A DNA stretch of 64,000 nt from Halobacteria archaeon HArc-gm2 (GTDB lineage: Archaea > Halobacteriota > Halobacteria > Halobacteriales > Haloarculaceae): NCBI GenBank assembly GCA_025517465.1, contig JAOPKE010000005.1, positions 248,001-312,000 of the forward strand, given 5' to 3'. Numbering within the stretch: position 1 is the first letter of the stretch; the number at the start of each line of letters is the position of its first letter. Positions 3,712 through 53,342 of this stretch are shown in pieces. The notes below the pieces were generated by a model. It was not told where the DNA came from. It saw nothing but the letters and a program-made list of their open reading frames with translations, and did not search any database. Both the position numbers and the translations under genes were made by a program.

Positions 3712-3744
3712 TGTGTGTCACCAATGGACGCTTTCGTGTTGTAA

Positions 3745-3769
3745 TGTACGAATCAGTACATCGGCATAA
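3745..3769 (-). promoter_or_regulatory. trpDFEG promoter with operator-like palindrome
   Basis: The 16-bp inverted repeat TGTAC-N6-GTACA (3745-3760) lies just downstream of a TATA-like CTTATG (3764-3769, minus strand) and about 35 nt before the trpD ATG. A protein bound there would block initiation, so this is a plausible tryptophan-responsive operator. The half-site resembles the TGTACA TRP box bound by TrpY in Methanothermobacter. Which haloarchaeal regulator would bind is unknown. Confidence 0.5.
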
Positions 3770-3784
3770 GCCCTTCGACCGACC

Positions 3785-4005
3785 TTTTTTCGTGGGGGGC
3801 ATCGCGCTCTCCTCCGTCGAGCGCTCAACCCCCCACAAAAAACGTCCTCAGAAGTGCGAAGCACTTCTGATGGGCTGCGTCAGAGTGGTTCGAGGGACCG
3901 TAGGTCCCTCGTCATCACGAGAGAGCTCCGCTCTCTCGTACGACTTCGCTCTGACGAACGTCGATGAAAAAAGGCCGACGGCTCGACCTGCGGTCTCGCC
4001 GTCGG
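3785..4005. repeat. Cluster of hairpins in the trpD / tRNA-Val spacer
   Basis: No convincing ORF is present; the interval is filled by inverted repeats. (1) 3785-3842: T6-C-GTGGGGGG pairs with CCCCCCAC-A6 around an inner GCGCTC/GAGCGC stem. (2) 3848-3870: a 10-bp stem with loop GAA. (3) 3878-3885 pairs with 3949-3956 (CGTCAGAG/CTCTGACG) and encloses (4) 3891-3911, a 9-bp stem with loop GTA, and (5) 3917-3939, a 10-bp stem with loop TCC. (6) 3975-3982 pairs with 3998-4005 (CCGACGGC/GCCGTCGG). It could be a miniature element, a structured RNA or a barrier between transcription units. Confidence 0.7.
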
Positions 4006-4210
4006 TTGAACCACGCTCACTTCGTTCGCGCGGATGCTAGTGCCACCGCACTCTCTTCATATTCTCATCCCACGCGGATCGTAATGCCAAGGAGAACATC
4101 GTGTCACGAGGGCTGGTCGTGCGCATCGTCAACACCCCCATACGGAACCGCGATTTCGAAACCTTCAATTATACCCCTGATTTACGAATGAGTGCAGAGG
4201 AAGCCAGCGA
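4006..4210. other. Spacer upstream of tRNA-Val, no gene seen
   Basis: AT-richer than its surroundings. No ORF with haloarchaeal codon bias is visible. The tRNA promoter probably lies in the last 60 bases, where ATTATACCCC at about 4167-4176 is a TATA-like candidate. Confidence 0.4.
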
Positions 4211-4285
4211 GGGTTTGTGGTCTAGGCTGGTTATGACACCTCCTTGACATGGAGGAGGCCGGCAGTTCAAATCTGCCCAAACCCA
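4211..4285 (+). tRNA. tRNA-Val (anticodon GAC)
   Basis: A complete cloverleaf of 75 nt. The acceptor GGGTTTG pairs with CAAACCC, followed by discriminator A. The anticodon stem CCTCC/GGAGG encloses TTGACAT, giving anticodon GAC, which reads GUC and GUU valine codons. The T arm is GGCAG-TTCAAAT-CTGCC. There is no intron and CCA is not encoded. The 3' part is duplicated 111 bp downstream. Confidence 0.95.
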
Positions 4286-4286
4286 T
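4265..4286 (+). repeat. att-like direct repeat, copy 1 (3' end of tRNA-Val)
   Basis: A 22-bp segment from the T loop through the discriminator base and one base beyond. It recurs exactly at 4376-4397. Duplicated tRNA 3' ends are the classic footprint of tyrosine-integrase insertion. Here only 89 bp separates the copies and no integrase gene is present. Confidence 0.75.
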
Positions 4287-4375: not shown

Positions 4376-4397
4376 GTTCAAATCTGCCCAAACCCAT
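4376..4397 (+). repeat. att-like direct repeat, copy 2
   Basis: An exact copy of 4265-4286 without the rest of a tRNA. The sequence between the copies forms a long imperfect hairpin. GCAGATTTGA at 4323-4332 pairs with the T-loop copy, and CCAGACG/CGTCTGG forms an inner stem around a CAACGGAGTGA loop (4350-4360). It may be a relic left by an excised element or a small palindromic insertion. Confidence 0.7.
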
Positions 4398-4533: not shown

Positions 4534-5016
4534 TCAGACCACGCTCGCGGTCCGCCGTTCCTGTTCGAGTGCGGACGGTTCGCCGTGCTCCAGGCGTTCG
4601 AGCCGATCCATGATCGTGTGCACGACGTCGCCCTTCGTACAGGGGGCGACGTGCTGGAGCTCCCCGTTCTTGTACTCTGCCAGACCCATGACGGGGAGCG
4701 TGATAGCGGTGTAGGCGTCCTCGGTGACTTCGTTGTCCACAGTGCTCGTCTGGTAGAACGATTCGAGCGAGACGTTGTTCGAGAGCGCCCACTGCTTGAA
4801 CTCGGCGACGCGGTTGAGAATGTACTGGCCTTCCTCGGTGTGGGCGGCGGCGGAGTCGCGAGCGACCTGTTTTCCCCAGACGATGACCGAGAAGTCGCCG
4901 ATCTGGTCTTCTCGGTCGAGCCGTTGCAGCTGATCGACGACTGCCTCCTGGCGCTCGTGGGCGCCGGTGGGGAGAAGCGAGCGGACGTACAGTTCGATGT
5001 GGGGGGTGGCGGACAT
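4534..5016 (-). CDS. Conserved haloarchaeal orphan protein (160 aa)
   Basis: Begins MSATPHIELYVRSLLP and ends in an acidic, Arg-containing tail. It contains VWGKQVARDSAAAHTEEG and LPVMGLAEYKNGELQHVAPC, which I recognise as conserved among haloarchaeal proteins often annotated as HTH-domain or hypothetical. No membrane segment or catalytic motif is evident; a small alpha/beta cytosolic protein seems likely. The start at 5016 fits the family N-terminus better than the upstream in-frame extension MCWRSDFDNE. It is monocistronic, between tRNA-Val and a lycopene-cyclase-domain gene. The function is unknown. Confidence 0.85.
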   Translation of the reverse strand: MSATPHIELYVRSLLPTGAHERQEAVVDQLQRLDREDQIGDFSVIVWGKQVARDSAAAHTEEGQYILNRVAEFKQWALSNNVSLESFYQTSTVDNEVTEDAYTAITLPVMGLAEYKNGELQHVAPCTKGDVVHTIMDRLERLEHGEPSALEQERRTASVV

Positions 5017-5261
5017 AGATCGGTTCACCTCGTTGTCAAAATCACTTCGCCAACACAAATACCTTGCGTCGGTGATCTTTCGTGTGTATTGACGAATATA
5101 ATGACCTAGTAACCGCCCGAAGAGGGCGTGATCCGCGCTCGGATCGATGCTGACAGCGTTCGTCGCTCACTACCGTTTGCGTAACAATGGCAAGCAGAGT
5201 TGGCAGGTCTGTGAGGTGTTTACCCAGTCGCTAGTCGCACCGCGACTCGGTCCGCCGTCCG

Positions 5262-37972: not shown

Positions 37973-38169
37973 ACCTGCTCACGGGTCACTTCGTTCCCCG
38001 TTCGCTATTCGTGAGAGCCTCACTACGTTCGCGACCCACCTTCTCACGGGTCGCTCCGCTCCCCGTTCGCCATTCGTGAGAGCCTCACTACGTTCGCGAC
38101 CCACCTGCTCACGGGTCGCTCCGCTCCCCGTTCGCTATTCGTGAGAGCCTCACTACGTTCGGCTCTCAC
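37973..38169 (-). repeat. Three-unit, 65-bp hairpin array at the 3' end of carA
   Basis: Units begin at about 37981, 38046 and 38111 (exact 65-bp period). Read on the minus strand, each unit holds two hairpins. One is capped by GAACGTAGTGA (38020-38030, 38085-38095, 38150-38160). The other is capped by GAACGAAGTGA or GAGCGGAGCGA (37986-37996, 38051-38061, 38116-38126) on a CGGG/CCCG stem. The last hairpin (38141-38169, 9-bp stem GTGAGAGCC/GGCTCTCAC) overlaps the carA stop codon. The same family recurs at 52995-53230. Confidence 0.85.
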
Positions 38170-52951: not shown

Positions 52952-52994
52952 ACCGACGGTGGGGTTGGGTTGCTCAAAACAATTTCGGGAAGAG

Positions 52995-53230
52995 GCTGGT
53001 TCCGAACGTAGTGAGGAACCAGCTTATTGCGAGCGGGAGCGCCAGCGACACGCGAGCAGGTTGGTTCCGAACGTAGTGAGGAACCAGCTTATTGCGAACG
53101 GCGAGCGTAGCGAGCCGTGAGCAGGTTGGCGCCGAACGTAGTGAGGAACCAGCTTATTACGAGCGGGGAACGCAGTGACCCGCGAGCAGGCTGTCCCCGA
53201 CCGAAGGGAGGAACCAGCTTATGGCGAGCG
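52995..53230 (+). repeat. Four-unit, 65-bp hairpin array upstream of pyrG
   Basis: First-hairpin loops start at 53004, 53069, 53134 and 53199, an exact 65-bp period. Units 1-2 have stem GGTTCC/GGAACC and loop GAACGTAGTGA; unit 3 keeps the loop with a weaker stem. Unit 4 has GACCGAAGGGA. The second hairpins have GAGCGTAGCGA (53103-53113) on CGGC/GCCG, and GAACGCAGTGA (53168-53178) on CGGG/CCCG. Unit 1 has a 12-nt variant at 53037-53048. Stem bases covary between units and with the array at 37973-38169. Confidence 0.88.
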
Positions 53231-53342
53231 GCGAATGTGACCGAGGTCAGTCTTCCCGACCACCTATATAATTCTTGTCCAGAACTTCCGGTCGGTTCAC
53301 CGTCGACCCGCTTTTACCGTCACACGGTTCGCAGGTCGTCGT
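53231..53342 (+). promoter_or_regulatory. Promoter region of the 53343 / 53417 operon
   Basis: Two TATA-like boxes are present: TATATAA at 53265-53271, and CTTTTAC at 53311-53317, which is 29 nt before the ATG at 53343. The second box gives a leaderless mini-ORF; the first would give a longer leader. Confidence 0.5.

Follow-up and report, generated by a model that had tools for sequence, protein, structure and literature searches.

The spacer between trpD and tRNA-Val in the archaeon HArc-gm2 very probably consists of dispersed non-coding repeats of small size, nested on three levels (A, then B inserted into A, then T inserted into B). Three dispersed repeats were found one inside the other, with T within B and B within A, and their features in the window (the whole stretch of 64,000 nucleotides that was analysed) are as follows:

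3780-4038, plus strand: element A, the host repeat, ~140 bp (about 143 bp minus inserts, i.e., 3780-3846 plus 3963-4038)
3785-3842, plus strand: hairpin 1 of A, closed by T6/A6 (99.1% of helix 1 cells paired)
3847-3962 (approximate), plus strand: element B including T (hairpin 1 at 3848-3870, linker TGGGCTG, hairpin 2 at 3878-3885/3949-3956, then AACGTC)
3886-3943, plus strand: element T, a 58-bp double hairpin located in the tip of hairpin 2 of B (G3885 on its left, C3944 on its right)
3891-3911, plus strand: hairpin 1 of T, triloop GTA (inverted repeat, covariation)
3917-3939, plus strand: hairpin 2 of T, triloop TCC (inverted repeat, covariation)
3963-4005, minus strand: hairpin 2 of A and the second T tract (T tract at 3967-3972 read on the minus strand, with hairpin 2, 3975-4005, before it on that strand)
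4006-4038, plus strand: hairpin 3 of A and the right end GGATGCT (ATGCT invariant in 11/11 copies)

Since trpD is read on the minus strand from 3711 (Pfam Glycos_transf_3 match) and tRNA-Val(gac) lies at 4211-4285 on the plus strand, this stem-rich spacer stands upstream of both genes. In the scenario that we propose, A would have entered the spacer in the common ancestor of this species and the congener G006, the double-hairpin element B would then have entered A at AACGTC, and T would finally have entered the tip of the second hairpin of B at G^C, so that the order of the layers would be the order of the events.

Structure and surroundings of the spacer

Positions 3785-4005 fold at −123.5 kcal/mol on the plus strand and −130.5 kcal/mol on the minus strand, compared to shuffle means of −77.5 and −81.6 (z of −10.2 and −10.7), which is ~10 standard deviations better than shuffles on either strand, and 0/200 shuffles fold as well. 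An earlier note, made from the letters alone, had described this spacer as a succession of stems, and an inverted-repeat scan found again every stem, loop and end that it named, including the GAA and GTA triloops:

3786-3809/3819-3842: inverted repeat
3848-3857/3861-3870: inverted repeat, loop GAA
3878-3885/3949-3956: inverted repeat
3891-3899/3903-3911: inverted repeat, loop GTA
3917-3926/3930-3939: inverted repeat, loop TCC
3975-3988/3992-4005: inverted repeat
3780-3791/3966-3977: weak end pair

The cloverleaf-like arrangement seen at that stage is present, and it corresponds to T placed in the tip of the second hairpin of B. The repeated unit extends on the right beyond the limits proposed for the spacer (3785-4005), as it reaches ~4038 and includes the third hairpin of A.

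Several other features were observed around the spacer. A palindrome (TGTACGAATCAGTACA) at 3743-3762, upstream of trpD, keeps its form in the relatives compared and is a probable operator of the trp genes, and a weak echo of it occurs at 4180-4196, ahead of tRNA-Val. The 3′ end of tRNA-Val (4265-4286) recurs as an exact 22-bp copy at 4376-4397, 111 bp further downstream, and a palindromic stretch separates the two copies; this arrangement resembles an att-type duplication or a small element that targets tRNAs. A gene of the Pfam HTH_63 family (4534-5058, minus strand) adjoins tRNA-Val. Finally, the tandem arrays of 65-bp hairpin-rich units at 37973-38161 and 52993-53234 differ in sequence from A, B and T.

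Copies and empty sites

Using a 241-bp query from the spacer, we identified 47 matches in the genome itself, which sort into modules rather than one unit. A stands alone at two places (C13:358173 and C13:388278), the pair A+B lacks T at another (C1:584518-584608), and all three are present in the window, so that a ladder of states (A, A+B, A+B+T) is found within one genome. The orthologous trpD/tRNA-Val spacer was also aligned for five congeners. In G006, the closest relative, with 98% identity across the 200 bp adjoining the tRNA, the spacer contains A with quite different stem sequences, B and T being absent, while in the four others (G001, G002, G003 and G005) it is much shorter and displays no trace of A, B or T.

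The earlier note had guessed at a mobile element, for which cleanly bounded copies, and relatives with an empty site, would speak. Both were found, together with the dispersed copies, and thus the kind of sequence was rightly guessed; however, there are three nested elements and not one ending at 3782 and 3974, and the ends proposed for it (3782-3790 and 3967-3974) are internal parts of A.

Element A

Element A is laid out as CGACC-T6-hairpin 1-A6-CGTC/GATG-A6-GGCCG-hairpin 2-GGTTGAACC-hairpin 3-GGATGCT. In an alignment of 11 of the 14 copies found (leaving out two with B inserts and one near-duplicate), the linkers are conserved and the stems covary, with 91.5% of 317 cells paired and 25 double-change cells, and the covariation score was reached by 0/500 shuffles. 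A differs from T in having some one-sided changes to G-U (4/11 at one pair). The corresponding covariance model (R2) matched 76 of 97 Halobacteria genomes at E ≤ 1e-6, the E-values of our models (R1 to R3) being rough.

Copies of A are frequently located right behind genes. Taking one locus per genome in 30 genomes, a gene 3′ end was found at most 45 nt before A in 14/30 loci (10 coding genes and 4 tRNAs), mostly at 0–6 nt, compared to 2.9% for CDS ends at random positions; an earlier and stricter count gave 3/15 versus 2%. The T tract of A thus lies at gene 3′ ends in these 14 loci and not at the window site, where no gene end directly precedes A. Here, the site 3989-3972 on the minus strand is terminator-like for minus-strand transcripts by its consensus match alone. 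U tracts act in archaeal transcription termination, as described in part in PMC8716108, and A resembles the archaeal U-tract terminators of that description in its T tract a few nucleotides behind stop codons and tRNA ends, but differs from them in being a dispersed repeat of ~140 bp that has three hairpins and carries T tracts on both strands. Given its gene-end position and this role of U tracts, A is probably a portable bidirectional transcription terminator, and at the window site it could insulate two divergent promoters.

This position also bears on whether the repeats move at all. Conserved terminators and hairpins might have arisen by convergent evolution in GC-rich spacers, A, B and T being immobile, and the occurrence of A behind gene ends far above chance is what a selected terminator would give. 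We nevertheless consider such an origin highly improbable, as the linkers are invariant across loci while the stems differ, and as exact empty sites exist.

Element B

Element B (3847-3956) consists of hairpin 1-TGGGCTG-CGTCAGAG..CTCTGACG, and its second hairpin compensates across copies (CGTCAGAGC/GCTCTGACG, CGATAGAGC/GCTCTATCG, CGGTAGAGC/GCTCTACCG and CGTTAGAGC/GCTCTAACG). In the window, AACGTC borders B on both sides (3841-3846 and 3957-3962), and this pair may be a target duplication. However, at another B site (L075) the direct repeat is just GTG or GGTG. Identical A/B junctions, with compensated stems in hairpin 2, occur in three other genomes (G002, G021 and G027), which suggests that A and B may be an old pair spreading as a unit.

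Element T

Element T is laid out as TGGTTCGA-hairpin-TCGTCATCACGA-hairpin-TCGTACGA. About 32 distinct places were found in the genome itself among the matches to the covariance model R1, counted by hand from the match list with reverse-strand duplicates left out. The T alignment holds the gapless class only (38 of the 135 copies, 32 of them distinct, from this and named genomes) and is 60 columns wide including the end bases, T itself being 58 bp in the window. Its linkers are nearly invariant while its stems are variable: 98.6% of 576 cells are paired, double changes occur at 9/18 pairs, and 91 double-change cells stand against 1 one-sided cell, with a covariation score reached by 0/500 shuffles. 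Moreover, the triloops occur in both orientations on one stem (as an example, GAGAGC with TTC 25 times and with GAA 23 times), and 14 stem types are shared by hairpin 1 (30 types) and hairpin 2 (31 types). The bases at the borders of T are GT..AC in 118/121 copies and GT..AT in 3. We also noticed a further double-hairpin insert (U), placed in the centre of T at the CATC/ACGA junction and flanked on either side by a CATC repeat; it was seen at L279 (G000:C17:24461), L280 (G000:C14:88809) and L094 of G007.

RNA helices commonly evolve through G-U steps. Compensated stems without such intermediates fit hairpin DNA better than RNA, and on this pattern of sequence change T suits DNA hairpins. The same pattern weighs on another explanation, in which the spacer would act as a gene for a structured RNA or as a riboregulator (a leader of trpD or tRNA-Val) under selection at the RNA level. 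Although the folding is very strong on both strands and the stems of A covary, Rfam at the gathering score yielded tRNA alone for the window and five loci, the whole structure is missing at the locus in four congeners, identical modules are found at many unrelated loci, and the stems of T change pairwise, with 1/576 cells one-sided, unlike RNA drift via G-U pairs. An RNA gene thus seems very unlikely, and it was dropped as a candidate on the Rfam result.

Insertion sites of T

The target of T is CG^CNNCG, with C at −1 in 75%, C at +3 in 89% and G at +4 in 82% of the 121 copies (out of 135) used for this count; the G and C at the cut belong to the search pattern and are therefore tested by the empty sites only. 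Comparison of filled and empty copies (L018 with L034, and the window with its empty site L014) showed that T joins exactly at G^C, no bases being duplicated or lost. Indeed, apart from T itself, the filled copy L034 has the same flanks to the left and right of G^C as the empty copy L018, noting that this pair consists of paralogous copies of a repeat H and not of orthologous loci. T was also found within hairpin 1 of A (L006 vs L066) and, at L094, in the tip of a second T, and thus the hosts seen are palindromes of B, A, H and T.

The host repeat H, of about 130 bp (GGACTGAAAGGGCG...GCCGAGGGCTTTC), occurs at L024, L034, L018 and other loci of the genome itself, with numerous filled and empty copies. 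It is often found in inverted pairs ~150 bp apart and has three T target positions.

Hairpin tips were also considered as the general target. After reducing the 126 T copies with flanks to 116 unique sites, perfect stems of at least 7 bp were found at the insertion point in 11/116 (9.5%), compared to 3.3% at random GC sites, and imperfect flanking inverted repeats (score ≥ 12) in 29.8% of 114 T sites, compared to 8.6% for swapped flanks and 11.5% for random GC sites, the latter enrichment being the clearer one. Strict hairpin-tip targeting was consequently rejected as a general rule, as the enrichment in perfect stems is weak, and replaced by CG^CNNCG: T follows a short motif common in hairpin tips, and not hairpins alone.

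Distribution of T

Model R1 matched T in 137 of 145 Halobacteria genomes and in 55/58 genera at E ≤ 1e-4, the weakest of the 137, with E near 1e-5, being possibly due to chance, while no R1 match was found at this threshold in the other eight genomes; note that match counts include both strands of a near-palindrome. At E ≤ 1e-8, matches were found in 22/119 genomes of the phylum, all 22 from the same order. A pattern scan of named genomes gave at least 116 stretches, and among the matches listed 78/80 belong to haloarchaea, the two bacterial ones being devoid of the hairpins. Viral carriage of T was not retained either, the one pattern match in viral contigs being without hairpins. Searching the centre of T in both orientations in full-text literature returned unrelated papers only, and within the literature covered no description of T was found, the nearest being the SMRs and PATEs of Haloquadratum and the bacterial REPs.

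What could move T

The presence and absence of copies suggest that T would be a transposase-free mobile element of ~60 bp, spread nearly throughout Halobacteria. It would move as hairpin-forming single-stranded DNA, driven either by an enzyme acting in trans or by replication and repair acting on extruded hairpins. The two corresponding explanations are rival mechanisms inside the nested-element reading.

According to the first one, T is a remnant with fused ends of an IS200/IS605-type transposon (a terminal-only PATE), moved by a resident TnpA (Y1), as REPINs are by RAYTs. The pair of hairpins, the short invariable target and the insertion without target duplication are consistent with single-strand transposition by Y1. 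PMC3119063 mentions terminal-only PATEs made by the fusion of two ends, one of them 52 bp long, and Y1_Tnp was found in 99/145 genomes of the class at E ≤ 1e-10, the RAYT subgroup not being split out. However, five genomes with 14 to 35 T matches, both strands counted (G046 with 35, G058 with 34, G044 with 17, G026 and G060 with 14 each), gave no Y1_Tnp at E ≤ 1e-10, a threshold below which a diverged Y1 could score. A Y1 transposase as the driver of T was thus rejected in so far as there is no simple presence link. In addition, no transposase with T ends was found in the genome itself, where split or enlarged T copies were examined and no T half-site flanks a transposase gene, and orphan half-sites amounted to 0/272 in 1.22 Mb of loci, many of which were chosen for holding T. 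Model R3 represents the left half of T and matched the genome itself 41 times; in two strong matches lacking the right half next to them, this half was found 64–66 bp away, with another hairpin pair in between. An autonomous T transposon was therefore discarded, as neither the half-site scan nor R3 gave a transposase-bearing version and the two split copies hold another hairpin insert. Taken as a whole, a Y1-driven origin remains doubtful.

The second one dispenses with a transposase: T would spread when replication slips or switches template at extruded hairpins, and arm-to-arm templating would keep the stems perfect and flip the loops. The near absence of half-changed pairs in the stems, the triloop borne in both orientations by each common stem, the 14 stem types common to both hairpins and the lack of a linked enzyme among those sought all agree with it, but an enzyme's choice is suggested by the exact motif (CG^CNNCG), at which bases are neither lost nor gained, and we regard this mechanism as rather unlikely.

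A wider and tentative hypothesis, which we would not favour at present, is that enzyme-free double-hairpin elements (T, B and others, among them the U insert) form a population spread over the whole haloarchaeal class, whose members use one another as hosts and enter the hairpin tips of other repeats at G^C. With stems rewritten arm from arm, such elements would persist as structures rather than as sequences.

Relation to known systems

T can be filed as a variant of the small mobile palindromic repeats, the nearest described kind being SMR-A of Haloquadratum walsbyi. As described in part in PMC3119063, SMR-A (HqIRS42, 43 and 55) inserts into palindromes of IS605 elements and PATEs without target duplication, its mobilisation is called enigmatic, and it is about 110 bp long, highly conserved within a type and known from one species. 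T is similarly haloarchaeal and non-coding, has terminal inverted repeats, enters palindromes of other mobile repeats and makes no target duplication (L018/L034 and window/L014 pairs). In contrast to that description of SMR-A (PMC3119063), T is 58–60 bp long and ranges across the class, its two hairpins are separate and have exchanged their stems, and its target is defined (CG^CNNCG).

T is also close to the PATEs of Haloquadratum derived from IS605, which are palindromic, without target duplication and, when terminal-only, near 50 bp; in the portion of PMC3119063 concerned, however, PATE palindromes are near-terminal parts of a longer element, whereas no longer element with T ends was found in the genome itself. 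Searched in this same genome, T also differs from a MITE in having no terminal inverted repeats in common with an autonomous transposon.

In bacteria, REPs, REPINs and GTAG/CGTC palindromes are mostly extragenic and many lie downstream of genes, as far as they are described in PMC3733652 and PMC3116915. T shares with them this placement, the inverted hairpin dimers and the many dispersed copies but, compared to the account in PMC3733652, displays no GTAG tag at either end in the 32 rows of its alignment. For a RAYT, no link was found at the level of Y1_Tnp as a whole. Words starting with 'halo' are absent from PMC3733652.

Double-hairpin elements are also found in fungal mitochondria, where they nest in each other. 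T resembles these elements, as presented in part in PMC2800124, in being small, dispersed and made of two hairpins, but belongs to another domain and another genome type; in the sponge repeats mentioned in the same source, stems are conserved and loops vary, whereas the stems of T vary in pairs.

Significance

Element A would be a candidate mobile terminator set right behind genes and tRNAs. As for T, the movement of transposase-free palindromic repeats is an open question, and was called enigmatic for the SMRs of Haloquadratum in the part of PMC3119063 that deals with them. T provides a clean handle on this question, as a unit of 58–60 bp whose target is exact and whose join is known, with both empty and filled copies in one genome. 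It occurs across a class that includes laboratory model species, and T would let direct experiment separate enzyme-driven from replication-driven spread.
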